DNA from: Arthrobacter sp. Leaf141
GTDB lineage: Bacteria > Actinomycetota > Actinomycetes > Actinomycetales > Micrococcaceae
DNA length: 64,000 bases
Assembly: GCF_001424565.1 (NCBI RefSeq)
Contig: NZ_LMOL01000016.1
Coordinates: 36,523-100,522, forward strand
Reading direction: 5' to 3'
The notes beneath the pieces are model-generated. The model did not search any database. It was given only the letters and a program-made list of their open reading frames with translations, and had not been told where the DNA came from. Position numbers and translations under genes: made by a program. The stretch's first letter is position 1. Each line of letters starts with the position of its first letter. Positions 531-64,000 of the stretch are shown here, piece after piece.

Positions 531-2363
531 TCACTTGGCTGGCTTCACCACCATCGCCGAGCCGCCGCCCCGCCTGGCAGGCTCGGCCACGGCCAGCACA
601 CCGCCTGATGGCAGGAACTCAATGGCGGTGGCGGCGCCGATCTCCGCCGCCGAACTGCCTGGCGGGCCGGCAGCCGTGAACTTATGGCCGAACGGGGCCA
701 GGCCCGGGCCGTACCTGTCGATAAAGCCCTGTTCCGCGCTCACCGACGCCGTGTTCCGCTGGGCGGCACGGGGTGCGGCCACGGCGTCGAGGAGGCCCAT
801 CTTGAGATCGATCCTGTTGATCAGGGTCTGCAGGACAGTGGTGATGATGGTGGAACCGCCCGGTGAGCCAAGGGCCAGGAACGGCTTGCCATCCCTGAGC
901 ACGATGGTGGGCGACATGGACGACCGCGGACGCTTGCTCGGCTGGATCCGGTTGGGATCTTCCTCATCAAAGACGGTGGAGAAGTCGGTGAGTTCGTTGT
1001 TCAACAGGAAGCCCCGGCCCGGAACCACAATCCCGGACCCGCCGGTCTGCTCAATGGTCAGGGTGTACTCCACCACGTTGCCCCACTTGTCGGACACCGT
1101 GAGGTTGGTGGTGGAGATGTTCTCCGTATCAGTGTCATTGGCCAACGGGACCGGCGGTGTGGTGCAGGCGCCGTCGTAGGACAAAACATTGCCCGGTTGC
1201 ACGGGTTTGACGGCGGCCTGGAGCGGATTGAGCTGGCAGGCGCGTTCCTTGCCGAAGACCGGGTTGAGGAGCGCTGCGGTGGGAACCGGCACAAAGGCGG
1301 GATCGCCCACATACTCGGCGCGGTCCGCAAACGCGAGCGCGCTTGCCTCCAGGTAATGGTGCAGGACTGACGGCCGGGCTTGTGCAGTGGCCGGCAAATC
1401 GAAGCCGGACAGGATGTTCAGCGCCTCACCCACCGTGGTGCCGCCGCTGCTGGAGGGTGCCATGCCGTGGACGTCATAGCCGCGGTAGCTCACCTTGGTG
1501 GCTGCCTGGTCAATTGCCCGGTAGTTGGCCAGGTCCGCCACCGTCATGGAGCCTGGCGGAACCGGCAGCTCCGTGTCGGCAGCTTTGGGTGGGGCCTGGA
1601 CCGTGGCCGCAATCTCCCCGGCGAGCGGGCCGGTGTAGAAGGCGCCGGTTCCCTGCCGGGACAGCAGCCGGTACGTCTCCGCGAGGTCCTTGTTCCTGAA
1701 CACCGACCCCACCACCGGAAGCTGTCCGCCCGGAAGGAACAGCTCTGCAGTGGCAGGGAACGCTTCAAAGCGGGCCTGGTTGTCCTCGGTCTGCTTGCGG
1801 AAGGTGCCGTCGACGACGAAGCCCCGGGTGGCCACCTTGATGGCGGGCTTCAGGGCCTCGGCCAGGCTGACGGTGCCCCAGCGCTCCAGCGCACGTTCCC
1901 AGGTGGCGGGCGTTCCGGGCACACCCACCGAAACGCCGCTGGTCACCAGGTCCGGGCTGAAGGTGTAGGGCCCGCCGGTGGCCGGATTGATGAACGCGTC
2001 ACTGCGGATCCCCGCGGGCGCAGTCTCCCGGCCGTCGATGGTGCCCACCTTCCCGGTGGCCGCGTCATAAAACACAAAGTAGCCGCCGCCGCCAACACCG
2101 GCGCTGTACGGCTCCGTGACGCCCAGCGTCGCTGCTGCCGCAACCGCCGCGTCGGCCGCGTTGCCCCCTTTGCGGAGGACCTCGATGGCCGCCGCGGACG
2201 CTTCGGGATCTACGGTGCTGACGGCACCGCCGGATCCGGTGGCGGTGGCGCTCCGGTCCGTTTGCCGGGGATCGGCAGCGGCCGGCGTCATGATGGCACC
2301 TGTGGTTACGCTCATTGCCAGCACAGCCGTAATGGCTGCGGCCCGGCGTCCCGGATGTGGCAT
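531..2363 (-). CDS. ggt: Gamma-glutamyltransferase (glutathione hydrolase)
   Basis: A 610-residue secreted Ntn-hydrolase that cleaves gamma-glutamyl bonds such as that of glutathione and transfers the glutamyl group to water or amino acids. The ATG at 2363 is preferred over an upstream in-frame codon because AGGAG sits 7 bases before it and the protein then begins with a normal signal peptide (MPHPGRR, a hydrophobic stretch, then a TPAAA-type cleavage region). The proenzyme cleavage site and nucleophile are visible as STTNLTVSDKWGN; the second Thr, about residue 419, should become the N terminus of the small subunit. The NNELTDFS and SPGGS motifs of the small subunit are present. The gene stands alone, convergent with the permease. 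Confidence 0.95.
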   Translation of the reverse strand: MPHPGRRAAAITAVLAMSVTTGAIMTPAAADPRQTDRSATATGSGGAVSTVDPEASAAAIEVLRKGGNAADAAVAAAATLGVTEPYSAGVGGGGYFVFYDAATGKVGTIDGRETAPAGIRSDAFINPATGGPYTFSPDLVTSGVSVGVPGTPATWERALERWGTVSLAEALKPAIKVATRGFVVDGTFRKQTEDNQARFEAFPATAELFLPGGQLPVVGSVFRNKDLAETYRLLSRQGTGAFYTGPLAGEIAATVQAPPKAADTELPVPPGSMTVADLANYRAIDQAATKVSYRGYDVHGMAPSSSGGTTVGEALNILSGFDLPATAQARPSVLHHYLEASALAFADRAEYVGDPAFVPVPTAALLNPVFGKERACQLNPLQAAVKPVQPGNVLSYDGACTTPPVPLANDTDTENISTTNLTVSDKWGNVVEYTLTIEQTGGSGIVVPGRGFLLNNELTDFSTVFDEEDPNRIQPSKRPRSSMSPTIVLRDGKPFLALGSPGGSTIITTVLQTLINRIDLKMGLLDAVAAPRAAQRNTASVSAEQGFIDRYGPGLAPFGHKFTAAGPPGSSAAEIGAATAIEFLPSGGVLAVAEPARRGGGSAMVVKPAK

Positions 2364-2450
2364 GGTTGCTCCTAACGGGGTGGGTGAGGTGCGCCACACC
2401 TTACTCCCGCGCCACGTTCAGTTCAACGACGAACCTCCCGGAGGAACAGC

Positions 2451-3767
2451 ATGACCAACTGGCGGATCAGGGATTTCCACTCTGCTGACCTGGACGGCAT
2501 CCTGCACCTGTGGGAGACCCTCAAGGCCCACAACGTGGAGCCGGTGTACGCCCTGTCCGAGGTCCTGGCCTCCTGCGAAAAGGACCATGCCGTGGTGGCG
2601 GTACAGGGCGAACAGGTGGTGGGTGCCGCGGTGGGCCGCGCTGCGCACGACCAGGGCTGGATCGTTTTCCTGGCCACCCTGCCCGAATACCGCGGGCGGG
2701 GCATCGGCACCTCCCTGCTTGCCGCCGTCGAGAACCGGATGGCGCCCCACGGGCTCAACAAGCTGTCGGCGTTGATGCCCGAATCCGAAACCCGCGTGGA
2801 AGCATTCCTGAGCCGCGGCTTCGCATTAAAGAAGAACCTGCGCTATTTCGAGCGGACCATTCCGGTGCAGCGGCAGGAACTTGGCGCCCTGGGCCAGCTG
2901 GGCGGCCGCATCCTGGCCCGGGACCTCTGGGAGAACGTCGCCGGCATGCGCAAGGAAAAGGAACTACTCGAACGCAGGCTGGTGCTGCCGTTGGCCGAGG
3001 CTGACCTGGCGGACGAGTTCGGTGTGGTGCCGCCGCGCGCAGTGGTCCTCTTCGGCCCGCCCGGCACGGGCAAAACCACGTTTGCCAAGGCCATCGCGTC
3101 CCGGCTGGAGTGGCCGTTTGTGGAGGTCTTCCCGTCCCGGCTGGCCGCCGATCCCCAGGGCCTGGCTGGCGCCCTGCGGGAGACTTTCCTCGAAATCGCG
3201 GAGCTGGAACACGCCGTGGTGTTCATCGACGAGGTGGAGGAGATCGCCTCGCAGCGTTCCGGCGAGCCCCCCTCGCCCCTGCAGGGCGTCACCAACGAGC
3301 TCCTGAAGATCATCCCGGCCTTCCGCGAACAGCCCGGCCGGCTGCTGGTGTGCGCCACCAACTTCATCCGGGCCCTGGACACGGCGTTCCTGCGGCATGG
3401 GCGGTTCGACTACGTCATCCCCATCGGGCTGCCCGACCGGCAGGCGCGCACTGCCATGTGGCAGCGCTTCATCCCGGCCGCAGTGGTGGACACCGTGGAC
3501 GTGGAGCTGCTGGTGGAACGCACGGAGGGCTTCTCACCGGCGGACATCGAATACGCTGCCCGCAGCGCCTCCCAGCGGGCACTGGAAAAAGCAGTGTACG
3601 ACGACGGCGGGCTGGCAACCGGTGGCGGCGCGGCCGCCCGGGCGGCAGTACGCCGTGGTCCAGCCACCCAGGATTACCTGGACGCCATCGGGGACACCCG
3701 CACCACCGTCAGCGCCGAGGTACACGAGGACTTTCTGGTCGACATCAACGCTTTGGGACGGGTCTGA
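2451..3767 (+). CDS. GNAT acetyltransferase fused to AAA+ ATPase
   Basis: A 438-residue two-domain protein. Residues 1-140 are a GNAT acetyltransferase fold with the acetyl-CoA loop YRGRGIGTSLL near residue 84. Residues 150-390 are an AAA+ ATPase: Walker A GPPGTGKTT near 203, Walker B VVFIDEVEE near 257, sensor 1 LLVCATNF near 303, and an arginine-finger region RHGRFDYVIP. The AAA+ part resembles FtsH/Cdc48-type modules but has no protease domain or membrane segment. GGAGG lies 7 bases before the ATG, so the start is firm. The acetylated substrate and what the ATPase remodels are unknown. The gene overlaps no neighbour and is followed 18 bases later by ltrA. The domain calls are secure; the function is not. 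Confidence 0.85.
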   Translation: MTNWRIRDFHSADLDGILHLWETLKAHNVEPVYALSEVLASCEKDHAVVAVQGEQVVGAAVGRAAHDQGWIVFLATLPEYRGRGIGTSLLAAVENRMAPHGLNKLSALMPESETRVEAFLSRGFALKKNLRYFERTIPVQRQELGALGQLGGRILARDLWENVAGMRKEKELLERRLVLPLAEADLADEFGVVPPRAVVLFGPPGTGKTTFAKAIASRLEWPFVEVFPSRLAADPQGLAGALRETFLEIAELEHAVVFIDEVEEIASQRSGEPPSPLQGVTNELLKIIPAFREQPGRLLVCATNFIRALDTAFLRHGRFDYVIPIGLPDRQARTAMWQRFIPAAVVDTVDVELLVERTEGFSPADIEYAARSASQRALEKAVYDDGGLATGGGAAARAAVRRGPATQDYLDAIGDTRTTVSAEVHEDFLVDINALGRV

Positions 3768-3773
3768 CCCGGC

Positions 3774-3779
3774 TATCTT
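3774..3779 (+). promoter_or_regulatory. -10 hexamer of ltrA, leaderless type
   Basis: TATCTT ends 6 bases before the ATG at 3786, and a weak -35 (TTTGGG, 3752-3757) lies 16 bases upstream. No ribosome binding site is visible, so the transcript probably begins at the start codon. Confidence 0.5.
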
Positions 3780-3785
3780 TGAACC

Positions 3786-5048
3786 ATGTCTTCAAACCCC
3801 CTCCGGCACGCCCTTTCCCGCATGGGTGGCCGTGATCCGCACGAGCAGCACCGGGCCGCCACACCTCTGGAACTTTTCTTTGACCTGACCTTCGTCATTG
3901 CCTTTGGCGTGGCCGGAAGCCAGCTGGCCCATGAGGTGGCGGAGGGCAAATTCGTACCCGGCCTGCTGGGGTTTTCCTTCGCCATGTTTGCGGTGATCTG
4001 GGCGTGGATCAACTTCACCTGGTTCGCCAGCGCCTACGACACCGACGACTGGATCTTCCGGGTGGTGACCATGGTGCAGATCGTGGGTGTCCTCATCCTG
4101 ACCATGGGCATCGAGCCGATGTTCCACTCGCTGGTGGAAGGCGAGCATGTGGAGAACCGCGTGATGGTGGCCGGATACGTGCTGATGCGGCTGGCGCTGG
4201 TGGCCCAGTGGCTCCGGGCCGCCCGGCAGGACCCTGCCCGCCGGGAAACGTGCCTGCGCTACGCGAAGTACCTGGCAATAGTTCAGGTGGGGTGGATCGC
4301 CCTATTGCTGGTGGAGACGGACGTGGCCACCACCTTTATGCTGACCATCCCGCTGGTTGTGCTGGAAATGGCCACCCCGTACGCGGCGGAACGGAAAAGC
4401 CGGACACCCTGGCACGCCCACCACATCGCTGAACGCTACGGCCTGCTGGCCATCATTGCGCTGGGCGAATGCCTGATCGGCGCCATCGAAACGCTCCGGG
4501 CCATTGTGGCAACCAACGGCTGGAGCATGGACGCCGCCCTGGTGGGCTTCGGCAGCACAGCACTGGCCTTCGGAATGTGGTGGGTCTACTTTATGCTTCC
4601 GGCCGGCCGCGCCCTGCACGTCCGCAGGCACCGCTCCTACCTCTTCGGCTACGGCCACATCCCCATCTTCGCCGCCATCGCCGCGGCCGGCGCAGGCCTC
4701 CACGTGGCTGCCTACTACATCAACCACGAGGCACACGTTGATGCCGCGGTGGTCATTGCCAGCATTGCCATCCCGGTTGCCGTGTTCAAGACTGCCCTGA
4801 CGTGGCTCTACAGCGTCATGATGAAAAGCGCCGACAAAACCATCCTGGCCGTGACCGCGGGCGTGCTGGTGTTGCTCGCCGCCAGCATTGGCATGGCTGC
4901 AGCGGGAGTACCGGTCACCCTGTGCCTGCTGCTGATTGTCCTGGCCCTCGCCGGTTCCGTGGCAGTTGATGAGTTGCGGGCTTCAGGCCGCATCCACGCC
5001 GCCCTGGAAAAGCTGGAGGCGGAGGCTACCGCTCCCCGTCCGCGATAG
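3786..5048 (+). CDS. ltrA: Low temperature requirement protein A (LtrA) family membrane protein
   Basis: A 420-residue integral membrane protein with ten or more hydrophobic segments. The N-terminal signature TPLELFFDLTFVIAFGVAGSQ is the hallmark of the LtrA family, whose founding member was found in a Listeria mutant unable to grow at low temperature. Its biochemical function is still unknown; a transport role is only supposition. The C-terminal tail is charged and cytoplasmic in appearance. The 3' end overlaps the convergent HD-domain gene by 23 bases. Confidence 0.85.
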   Translation: MSSNPLRHALSRMGGRDPHEQHRAATPLELFFDLTFVIAFGVAGSQLAHEVAEGKFVPGLLGFSFAMFAVIWAWINFTWFASAYDTDDWIFRVVTMVQIVGVLILTMGIEPMFHSLVEGEHVENRVMVAGYVLMRLALVAQWLRAARQDPARRETCLRYAKYLAIVQVGWIALLLVETDVATTFMLTIPLVVLEMATPYAAERKSRTPWHAHHIAERYGLLAIIALGECLIGAIETLRAIVATNGWSMDAALVGFGSTALAFGMWWVYFMLPAGRALHVRRHRSYLFGYGHIPIFAAIAAAGAGLHVAAYYINHEAHVDAAVVIASIAIPVAVFKTALTWLYSVMMKSADKTILAVTAGVLVLLAASIGMAAAGVPVTLCLLLIVLALAGSVAVDELRASGRIHAALEKLEAEATAPRPR

Positions 5049-5673
5049 GATTTCCGTCCGCGTCCAGGTGCGGGCCCGCCTGGTCGTAGGACAGGTTTTC
5101 GTAGTCCGTGGCGTCTTCCTCATCCAGGCGGTCGTCCAGCTCTTCAAGCAGCCACGGGTTGACCCGGGCCAGGATCAGGCGGATGTCTTCTGTTGGCACC
5201 GCGGCGTACAGGACGGGCCGGGCATCCAGGTACTTGGTGACCGGGGGCTTGTCCGGCCATTTGTCAGCAAGCGCCTTGACCCGTTCCGGCAACGAGTTGT
5301 GGGCGTTGTCGGCGATCTTGACCAGGGCCGCGTCGGGGTCCCCGGCGATGTCGCGGATCACCGCTGCGTAGTCGTCCGGGTCGTCGTGCAGCCGCGTGGT
5401 GACGCGTTCGACGATGTTGACGGCCCGTTCCGGTACCCCCATTTCCAGCAGCGCCTGACGGGTGACGGGGGTGTCCTCGGCAATGTCGTGCAGGTACCCC
5501 GCGATCCGGATGTCGTCGTCGAAATCCGCCAAGGCGTCCCCCACCGCCAGGACGTGCTCCCGGTAGGGCCGCTTGAGCTTGTCCTTCTGCCGGTTGTGCG
5601 CCACCTCCGCCAGAACCCTGGCGGTGTCGACGGTAAAGCGGGGCATGGACTCTTCGGGCTGTTGGTCTTGCAT
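5026..5673 (-). CDS. HD-domain hydrolase of the RelA/SpoT type (possible small alarmone hydrolase)
   Basis: A 215-residue soluble protein whose first 130 residues match the metal-dependent HD hydrolase fold of RelA/SpoT enzymes: YREHVLAVGDAL supplies the first His, GYLHDIAEDTPVT gives the HD and ED residues, and VKIADNAHNS matches the conserved LADrLHN segment. No synthetase or ACT domain follows; the last 80 residues are acidic and unassigned. The family suggests hydrolysis of (p)ppGpp or another nucleotide, but that is inference. A TAGGCT hexamer 6 bases before the ATG at 5673 supports this start over the internal ATG at 5646. The gene is convergent with ltrA, with a 23-base overlap. Confidence 0.75.
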   Translation of the reverse strand: MQDQQPEESMPRFTVDTARVLAEVAHNRQKDKLKRPYREHVLAVGDALADFDDDIRIAGYLHDIAEDTPVTRQALLEMGVPERAVNIVERVTTRLHDDPDDYAAVIRDIAGDPDAALVKIADNAHNSLPERVKALADKWPDKPPVTKYLDARPVLYAAVPTEDIRLILARVNPWLLEELDDRLDEEDATDYENLSYDQAGPHLDADGNPIADGER

Positions 5674-5942: not shown

Positions 5943-5958
5943 GTCAACCAAGGTTGAC
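5943..5958. promoter_or_regulatory. Operator 2, GTCAAC-N4-GTTGAC, over the -35 box
   Basis: Second copy with identical arms, 28 bp from the first. It overlaps the -35 hexamer TTGACG (5942-5947, minus strand), which is 17 bases from TAATGT. The gluQ stop codon (5944-5946) also lies inside it. Confidence 0.7.
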
Positions 5959-6849
5959 GGAGGGCGGACCCTGTGGCCGCCAGATCCACGGCTGCCGGGA
6001 CAGGCGGTCCGGATCAAAGGCCCCCAGGGCGTTGCCCAGGGGCCCCGGTGGCAGCTCCAGGGAGGACAGGATGGAGTCCCGCACGGAATCCGCGGGGACG
6101 CCGCCGGCCGCCAGGTCCGTCAGGGTCACAGCACCGTCGCGCTTGGCCAGCCGCACTCCCTGGCCATTGAGCACCAAGGGGACATGGACATATTCCGGAA
6201 CGGGAATATTCAAGAGGGACGCGAGGTAGGCCTGGCGCGGAGTTGATGGGAGCAGGTCGTCGCCGCGGACCACTTGGTCGATCCCCTGCTCGGCATCGTC
6301 CACAACCACTGCCAGGTTATAGGCGGTGACGCCGTCATTGCGGCGCAGGACAAAGTCGTCCACGACGCCGGTAAAGTCCCCGTGCAGCCGGTCGTGGACC
6401 ATGATGGCCGAAACTCCGGCGCGCAACCTGATGGCAGCCGGGCGCATGGCGCGCTTTTCGGCCCGCTCAGGGCCCATAAGGTTCCGACAGGTGCCCGGAT
6501 AGGCGCCCTGCGGCGCGTGCGGCGCAGACGGCGCCTCCTGGATTTCCCGCCGGGTGCAAAAACACTCATACGTCAGTCCAGCCGCCTCAAGTCCATCCAG
6601 GGCAGCAGCATAAAGCGCTCCGCGGTCCGTTTGCCGGACTGCAGCGCCGTCCCAGGTCAGTCCCACGGCAGCCAGATCCCTCAACTGCGCCGCTTCGGAC
6701 CCCGCCCGGGCCCGGTCCAGGTCCTCCACGCGCAGCAGGAACTTCCGGCCCGTGGACCTGGCGAAAAGCCAGGCCAGGACTGCCGTGCGCAGGTTGCCCA
6801 CATGCAGGTCACCCGAAGGGCTGGGAGCAAAGCGGCCGGCGGAATCCAT
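5944..6849 (-). CDS. gluQ: Glutamyl-Q tRNA(Asp) synthetase
   Basis: A 301-residue paralogue of the catalytic half of glutamyl-tRNA synthetase. GluQ activates glutamate and attaches it to queuosine at the wobble position of tRNA(Asp). The class I HIGH-type motif appears as APSPSGDLHVGNLRTA near residue 8, the KMSKS equivalent as RLAKRDGA near 237, and zinc-binding cysteines as ECFCTRRE followed by YPGTC. There is no anticodon-binding domain, as expected. The TGA stop falls inside an operator of the next gene. The start is supported by TAGGCT 6 bases upstream. Confidence 0.92.
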   Translation of the reverse strand: MDSAGRFAPSPSGDLHVGNLRTAVLAWLFARSTGRKFLLRVEDLDRARAGSEAAQLRDLAAVGLTWDGAAVRQTDRGALYAAALDGLEAAGLTYECFCTRREIQEAPSAPHAPQGAYPGTCRNLMGPERAEKRAMRPAAIRLRAGVSAIMVHDRLHGDFTGVVDDFVLRRNDGVTAYNLAVVVDDAEQGIDQVVRGDDLLPSTPRQAYLASLLNIPVPEYVHVPLVLNGQGVRLAKRDGAVTLTDLAAGGVPADSVRDSILSSLELPPGPLGNALGAFDPDRLSRQPWIWRPQGPPSVNLG

Positions 6850-24801: not shown

Positions 24802-25311
24802 TCAGAAGACCAGCTTCATGCCCAGGTGGCTGCCCGTGAACCCCAGCCGGGAGTAGAAGCGCTGCGCGTCGGTCCGGGACTTGTCGGTGGTCAGCTGCAC
24901 CATGGTGCAGCCCCGGCGCCGGGACTCCGCAATGGCCCACCGGATCATGATCCCGCCCAGGCCGTGGCTCCGCAGCTCCGCCGCCACGCGGACAGCTTCG
25001 ATCTGCGCGCGCCACGACCCCTGCCGGGAAAGGCCGGGGAGCATGCTCAGCTGGCAGGTTGCAGCCATGGTGTCGCTGCCGTCCTGGCCAAGGAACCGGC
25101 CCACCACCAGTTGGTGGGCGGGGTCGGCGTCGATCGCGGTGAACGCTGCCAGGTACGGTGCGAGGTCTGCCTGGTCCTCGCGACCGGCGCCCAGCCGGTC
25201 ATCGGCGAGGAGCCGCAGGATGTCCGGAAGGTCCGCGCTGGTGGCCTCACGCAGGAGGAACGTGCCGCCGGCAACATCGGTGGACAGGAGCGCTGCGGGG
25301 GGCGTCGTCAT
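24802..25311 (-). CDS. GNAT family N-acetyltransferase
   Basis: A 169-residue acetyltransferase. It has the acetyl-CoA loop as ELRSHGLGGIMIRWAI near residue 113 and the C-terminal AQRFYSRLGFTGSHLGM. The N-terminal part ADLPDILRLLADD is the usual first helix. Its substrate is unknown. ATG at 25311 is preferred to the GTG three codons upstream because TAGCGT lies 7 bases before it. It stands alone upstream of the MarR promoter. Confidence 0.85.
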   Translation of the reverse strand: MTTPPAALLSTDVAGGTFLLREATSADLPDILRLLADDRLGAGREDQADLAPYLAAFTAIDADPAHQLVVGRFLGQDGSDTMAATCQLSMLPGLSRQGSWRAQIEAVRVAAELRSHGLGGIMIRWAIAESRRRGCTMVQLTTDKSRTDAQRFYSRLGFTGSHLGMKLVF

Positions 25312-63522: not shown

Positions 63523-64000
63523 ATGCAGACCAACCCACGGCTGAACATCAGGCAGGTGGCCTGGTCCAACCCTGTGGGTGCCGATCTGCGCCGGGCCCAG
63601 CAGGCGGAACTTGATGCCCGCTTCGGGACACCGGATCACGAACCCGGCCAGCCGCCGTCGGGCGCTGACTGTGCCGTTTTCCTGGTGGCCTACGACAAGG
63701 GTTCCGGGCAGCCCGTGGGCTGCGGCGGGCTGCGGATACTGGACGCGCTGACGGCCGAAATCAAACGGCTGTACGTCCTGCCGTACACGCGGGGCTCCGG
63801 AGTGGCCAGCTCAATCCTCGCCGCCCTTGAGGCGGAGGCGTTCAGGCAGGGCATCACGCGGATCAAAGCGGAAGCCGGATCGGCCCAGCCGGATGGACGG
63901 AACTTCTACGAGAACAGCGGCTTCGAACCGGTCCCGAACTTCGGCGCCTACGCGGGCGTGGAGCACTCCTACTGCTACGCCAAGTCCATCAACGCCCGGA
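63523..64000 (+). CDS. GNAT family N-acetyltransferase, 3' truncated by window edge
   Basis: 159 codons are open from the ATG at 63523 to the window end, with no stop. GAGG lies 5 bases before the ATG. The GNAT core is visible: PVGCGGLRILDALTAEIKRLYVLP followed by the acetyl-CoA region TRGSGVASSILAALEAEA and RNFYENSGFEPV. The substrate is unknown, and the C-terminal end is missing. Confidence 0.85.
   Translation, partial: MQTNPRLNIRQVAWSNPVGADLRRAQQAELDARFGTPDHEPGQPPSGADCAVFLVAYDKGSGQPVGCGGLRILDALTAEIKRLYVLPYTRGSGVASSILAALEAEAFRQGITRIKAEAGSAQPDGRNFYENSGFEPVPNFGAYAGVEHSYCYAKSINAR

Follow-up and report, generated by a model that had tools for sequence, protein, structure and literature searches.

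In the window analysed here (the whole 64,000-nucleotide stretch of DNA), a single uninterrupted frame on the forward strand, opening with an ATG at 2451 and closing with a stop codon at 3765-3767, encodes a protein of 438 residues in which a GNAT acetyltransferase domain precedes an AAA ATPase module. This raises the question of whether the fusion is genuine and, if so, what an acetyltransferase fold does in front of an ATPase. The first-pass annotation had read a GNAT domain and an AAA module with intact Walker A, Walker B, sensor 1 and arginine finger in one chain, which was confirmed both by Pfam and by the sequence. More specifically, Acetyltransf_1 (PF00583) matched residues 30-124 with 47.9 bits (cut-off 20.7), AAA (PF00004) residues 198-326 with 86.4 bits (cut-off 21.2) and AAA_lid_3 (PF17862) residues 349-380 with 29.1 bits, above its curated cut-off; the GNAT motif A reads R81-G-R-G84-I-G86. 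Coordinates are collected in Table 1. A scan of positions 2300-5200 found no sigma-70-like promoter, and terminator-like sites in the same interval (three, against a mean of 1.6 in shuffled sequence) were present in about the number expected by chance. A structure model built from 36 close sequences had a mean pLDDT of 46.6, too poor for use.

Table 1. Features of the GNAT-AAA gene and of the gene downstream of it, in window coordinates
Feature	Position	Strand	Basis
Shine-Dalgarno-like GGAGG	2440..2444	+	6 bases 5' of the ATG, seen in the sequence
GNAT-AAA fusion gene, 438 aa	2451..3767	+	one open frame; full-length conservation in homologues
GNAT domain, residues 4-135	2460..2855	+	PF00583 (matched part 30-124); phmmer to 2pdo
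GNAT motif A RGRGIG (acetyl-CoA loop), residues 81-86, intact	2691..2708	+	sequence
F119 at the usual GNAT Tyr place (Y...GF)	2805..2807	+	comparison of members and other GNATs
Linker, residues 136-157, with conserved G151-G152	2856..2921	+	alignment of members
Classical AAA module and lid, residues 158-380	2922..3590	+	PF00004, PF17862, VCP-like matches
Walker A GPPGTGKT, residues 202-209	3054..3077	+	pattern in 175/175 rows
Pore loop 1 position DPQG, residues 234-237	3150..3161	+	alignment with VCP-like ATPase and controls
Walker B VVFIDE, residues 256-261	3216..3233	+	D260 and E261 in 175/175 rows
Sensor 1 Asn N304	3360..3362	+	175/175 rows
Arginine fingers R315 and R318, in LRHGRFD	3393..3404	+	each in 175/175 rows
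Variable C-terminal tail, residues 381-438	3591..3764	+	mean pairwise identity 33% vs 58% for AAA
LtrA-family membrane protein gene	3786..5048	+	PF06772; 18 bases 3' of the fusion gene

Distribution and genomic setting of the fusion

Whole-genome searches detected a match in 55 of 197 genomes of the family sample, and 57 of the 58 matches begin at or before residue 5, reach residue 385 or beyond and contain no internal stop, the remaining one being a fragment beside an intact copy. The order sample gave a match in 27 of 198 genomes and the class sample in 58 of 394 (57 by inspection, the match in G589 being an ordinary AAA match), while 29 of 396 genomes of the phylum sample had rows at 40% identity or more when read by eye, the automatic phylum tally of 107 also taking in ordinary AAA proteins. 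These samples overlap, and the best four or eight candidates were scored per genome, so that absences are uncertain. Together, reading the match rows by eye, we counted 147 distinct actinobacterial genomes with a member, down to 40% identity, and in 145 of them the match runs from the GNAT half at least as far as residue 380; the exceptions are a frame-broken copy in G398 and a copy in G805 that begins at residue 48, near the end of its contig. A natural split into two genes was seen in none of the family, order, class and phylum genome searches. The first-pass annotation had named a frame error joining two genes, or orthologues always encoded separately, as grounds for refutation; neither applies, and an assembly join is ruled out by the wide recurrence of the fusion without internal stops. 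The GNAT-AAA gene is a genuine single-protein fusion and represents a widespread actinobacterial family.

Among the best 80 of 284 loci of a contig scan, all 89-96% identical, 78 are titled Arthrobacter or Pseudarthrobacter. Plasmids contribute 23 matching records at E <=1e-25, all from actinobacterial genera, and in 22 of these the match spans 80% or more of the protein. The NCBI name 'bifunctional GNAT family N-acetyltransferase/ATP-binding protein' is attached to three of the records, and a homologue bearing it, on plasmid pROB01, aligns to residues 1-432 at 48% identity, with the same full-length two-domain architecture; the architecture is thus already named in databases.

Some genomes hold additional or damaged copies. 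The one apparent AAA-only copy, in G548 (locus L210, 5974-7349, minus strand) was rejected as such, since its GNAT part lies in an overlapping frame directly upstream, making it a frame-broken second copy in a genome that also has a full-length one. The sole copy in G398 (L206) is also frame-broken, and G079 and G934 hold fragments in addition to full-length copies. Besides a closer copy, G164 and G006 (L182 and L183) each contain another complete GNAT-AAA gene, which has diverged to 60% identity with that of the window.

Upstream of the fusion gene lies a divergent gamma-glutamyltranspeptidase gene, and co-transcription with the LtrA gene downstream is possible, although this pairing is not conserved in the wider family. 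With a simple gene-calling procedure the fusion was recognised at 112 of 124 loci, including 35 of the 43 wider loci. Next downstream in these 112 lies an LtrA gene of the same orientation (19 loci), a gene for a Pyr4-like membrane protein (16) or, on the opposite strand, an HD-domain gene (14). Conserved neighbours had been proposed as a route to a partner; inspection of the 43 wider loci revealed no conserved partner gene, any neighbour cluster occurring in five of them at most, and no recurrent neighbour outside Arthrobacter relatives was seen among the loci examined. The fusion gene looks self-sufficient, and its patchy spread together with the plasmid copies suggests that it moves between strains. 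A phage origin was considered and rejected: of 44 matching phage records, not one spans 80% of the protein, and the viral contig matches listed include at least ten weak ones, all at 33% identity or less and all stopping short of the GNAT half. On two plasmids typed as conjugative, from Arthrobacter sp. D5-1 and Paenarthrobacter ureafaciens (L179 and L180, 4458-9314), whose regions are nearly identical, the fusion gene follows the isocitrate lyase and malate synthase genes of the glyoxylate shunt. Elsewhere in the window, 5944-6849 on the minus strand encodes the catalytic domain of an aminoacyl-tRNA synthetase of the Glu/Gln type in a short form (PF00749, 301 aa), by its size likely a glutamyl-Q tRNA(Asp) synthetase.

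Unequal conservation of the GNAT and AAA halves

The two halves were compared in a diverse set of 43 members, each less than 75% identical to the others. Their alignment contains 40 invariant columns, of which the start residue M1 is the sole one in the GNAT half, and mean pairwise identity is 34% in the GNAT domain (residues 4-135) against 58% in the AAA module (158-380), the latter being higher in 903 of 903 pairs. The first glycine of the acetyl-CoA loop, G84, is kept in 33 members and absent in ten, and the G-x-[GAS] core of the loop, intact in the window protein, is broken in 13. A strict motif-A pattern, found in 148 of 175 homologue rows and in 29 of the 43 diverse members, was superseded by this position-based count of the glycine core because, among 29 other GNATs encoded in the genome, it misses six that retain the core. 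These 29 controls, taken from 33 other GNAT matches in the genome, include 23 that fit the strict pattern, and the glycine core of the six misses was recognised by eye. Further PF00583 matches in the window lie at 24838-25143 (minus strand) and 63670-63924 (plus strand), in frames of 182 and 205 codons.

The GNAT fold mostly outlasts its acetyl-CoA loop, being kept in most members without the loop, since PF00583 is still found in 39 of the 43 diverse members at E <=0.01. The history of the loop was followed on the best tree, which was computed from residues 136-438 alone, the GNAT half being left out. The fewest changes are five for the loss of G84 and seven for the broken core, and the strict pattern requires eight, of which six are forced by well-supported branches, against a mean of 12 when shuffled. 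The losses are thus clustered rather than scattered, repeated but confined to a few old events. The tyrosine usual in GNATs, which we take to be the general acid, is absent in 42 of the 43, with Leu or Phe in its place. Counted by eye, the same tyrosine is present in 18 of 25 end-aligned other GNATs of the genome and absent in seven, so that its absence does not exclude catalysis. Taken together, what is new here is that the halves evolve unequally, the ATPase residues being invariant and the acetyltransferase site often eroded; the N-terminal part may therefore serve as a handle or a sensor and not as an enzyme.

Among close orthologues the picture is different. Median dN/dS is 0.029 for the GNAT half and 0.034 for the AAA half (60 comparisons, the first 60 taken, between orthologues 78-95% identical), and the strict motif-A pattern occurs in 94 of the 95 rows that are at least 85% identical. 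These low ratios and the preserved loop indicate strong selection on the GNAT half in Arthrobacter relatives, where it may bind acetyl-CoA or use it. Such evidence bears on the main rival to the reading that we favour below, namely a true bifunctional enzyme, in which the GNAT half would acetylate a protein or a small molecule, the AAA half would expose or release the target or regulate the acetyltransferase, and the broken loops would be secondary losses. The RGRGIG of the window protein, its near-constancy in close rows and a purifying selection equal in both halves are what would be expected of it, and so are the similarity to YpeA, the nearest solved relative of the GNAT half (2pdo, phmmer E 8.3e-8), and the name 'bifunctional' that NCBI gives to homologues. 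The diverse set argues the other way, with a loop core lost through at least seven changes, a nearly universal absence of the tyrosine and a GNAT half in which nothing beyond M1 is invariant; weighing both, we regard a bifunctional enzyme as somewhat unlikely, if a serious contender.

The ATPase module and its pore loop

The features of a classical AAA ATPase are present in the AAA half (PF00004): both Walker motifs, sensor 1, and two arginine fingers in the second region of homology. All 175 homologue rows (174 distinct, the window protein having entered twice) carry K208, D260, E261, N304, R315 and R318. The solved structures nearest to this half are VCP/Cdc48-like ATPases, over residues 160-378 of the query, and the profile comparison to VCP-like ATPases covers profile positions 156-417. 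The NCBIfam models for CDC48 (119.6 of the 802.65 bits needed) and for the proteasome-activating nucleotidase PAN (126.8 of 500) did not reach their cut-offs.

The pore loop 1 place is occupied by DPQG, with no aromatic-hydrophobic pair such as that of VCP and FtsH, a departure that the first-pass annotation, while correct on the intact AAA motifs, had missed. An aromatic-hydrophobic-Gly pore loop 1 is the hallmark of the AAA type that threads its substrates by aromatic paddles, a mode of action established for AAA unfoldases; the D1 pore loop of VCP is itself non-aromatic, an exception in some species. A VCP-like ATPase shows KYYG and KWVG aligned to DPQG. In six control alignments, two gave KYYG and KFVG, an FtsH-like protein of the same genome gave MFVG and a viral contig protein KWVN, while L003 and L004 were not usefully aligned through the loop, L003 having KYVG slightly further on. 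An aromatic residue occurs within residues 229-241 in three of the 175 rows, in one of the three outside the loop proper, as judged by eye. By this feature the fusion protein falls outside the aromatic-paddle threading type, and because the aromatic pair is lacking, remodelling probably does not proceed by the usual threading.

Resemblance of the AAA half to the anti-phage ATPase IetA raises a second alternative, an accessory defence or conflict protein, for which the patchy occurrence of the gene (55 of the 197 family genomes) and its presence on 23 plasmid records would be fitting. The IetA match in PADLOC reached 101.6 bits, and the NCBIfam anti-phage ATPase model NF042959 scored 98.2 bits, far under its cut-off of 510 and lower than the PAN, CDC48 and FtsH models; with no neighbour cluster in more than five of the 43 wider loci, we judge a defence role improbable. 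A third alternative, a metabolic small-molecule acetyltransferase or a resistance enzyme for which the AAA half provides no more than a scaffold for oligomerisation, would suit a lone gene with varied neighbours, metabolic ones included. It is highly improbable, since a role as scaffold alone would not preserve Walker B, sensor 1 and both arginine fingers in every one of the 175 rows.

Proposed mode of action and relation to known systems

We tentatively favour, with a little less than even confidence, a ring ATPase that remodels a partner protein bound by its GNAT-fold domain, with acetyl-CoA bound or used in some lineages. According to this reading, the protein would be a self-contained AAA ATPase of the classical, Cdc48/VCP type, most likely assembled as a hexameric ring, whose AAA half would spend ATP on remodelling a partner, probably without the usual aromatic-paddle threading. 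The GNAT-fold domain would serve as a recognition or regulatory N-domain that binds the target and, where the acetyl-CoA loop is intact, as in the window protein, it may bind acetyl-CoA and sense or still use it. The invariant ATPase residues, the eroded GNAT site, the odd pore loop and the VCP-like character of the AAA half all point in this direction. Against it stands the GNAT half of close orthologues, which is as constrained as the AAA half and keeps its loop, as expected if the domain is active or binds CoA in Arthrobacter relatives. On the same side count the other GNATs of the genome that lack the tyrosine or miss the strict pattern, the clustering of the loop losses, the non-aromatic D1 loop of VCP and a search of the neighbourhood that revealed no partner. 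The first-pass annotation had proposed ATP-driven remodelling of a protein whose acetylation state is changed or sensed. The remodelling is well supported by the invariant ATPase residues and by the proximity to VCP/Cdc48; acetylation being changed is the weaker part, given the broken cores and the missing tyrosine, and sensing or binding fits the family better.

If the GNAT half has been repurposed, the family would form a natural series from intact to broken acetyl-CoA loops under one invariant ATPase, and, if true, this series could serve to test how the fold of an enzyme is converted to recognition and whether an AAA machine can be steered by acetyl-CoA or by acetylation. A stronger proposition, that the family forms a novel class of AAA machines whose targeting or acyl-CoA-sensing N-domain is an acetyltransferase fold that has ceased to be an enzyme, whose ring remodelling is steered by the level of acetyl-CoA or the acetylation of the partner and whose pore works without aromatic paddles, strikes us as quite unlikely.

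A literature search in which subscription journals were thinly covered found no description of a GNAT-AAA fusion, and the matching passages of PMC7159879 and PMC7641849 do not describe one. The fusion joins two large families and is absent from the GNAT architectures reviewed in a passage of PMC11254643. There, multi-domain bacterial lysine acetyltransferases are divided into types I-V, built with an acyl-CoA-synthetase-like domain, with a smaller effector-binding domain, or from the GNAT domain alone or repeated. The fusion shares with them a GNAT joined to a potentially regulating domain, but none of the types I-V, as set out in that passage, contains an AAA module, and the term AAA has no occurrence in its main text (PMC11254643).

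Among individual proteins, IetA (spelled IteA in NCBIfam) has a related AAA module, but the match is confined to the AAA part and lies far below the NCBIfam cut-off, and the fusion comes without a recurrent partner gene. On the GNAT side, comparison with YpeA-type acetyltransferases shows residues 5-118 aligning to 2pdo and RGRGI in both loops; in contrast to them, the protein is fused to an ATPase, obtains 53 of the 124 bits set for PRK03624, below the cut-off, and belongs to a family in which neither the acetyl-CoA loop nor the tyrosine is kept throughout. With the VCP-like, Cdc48-type ATPases, the fusion shares the AAA module, Walker A and B, sensor 1 and both arginine fingers, but it has one AAA module instead of two, a GNAT N-domain, DPQG where the aligned VCP-like ATPase has KYYG and KWVG, and scores below the CDC48 and PAN cut-offs of NCBIfam.
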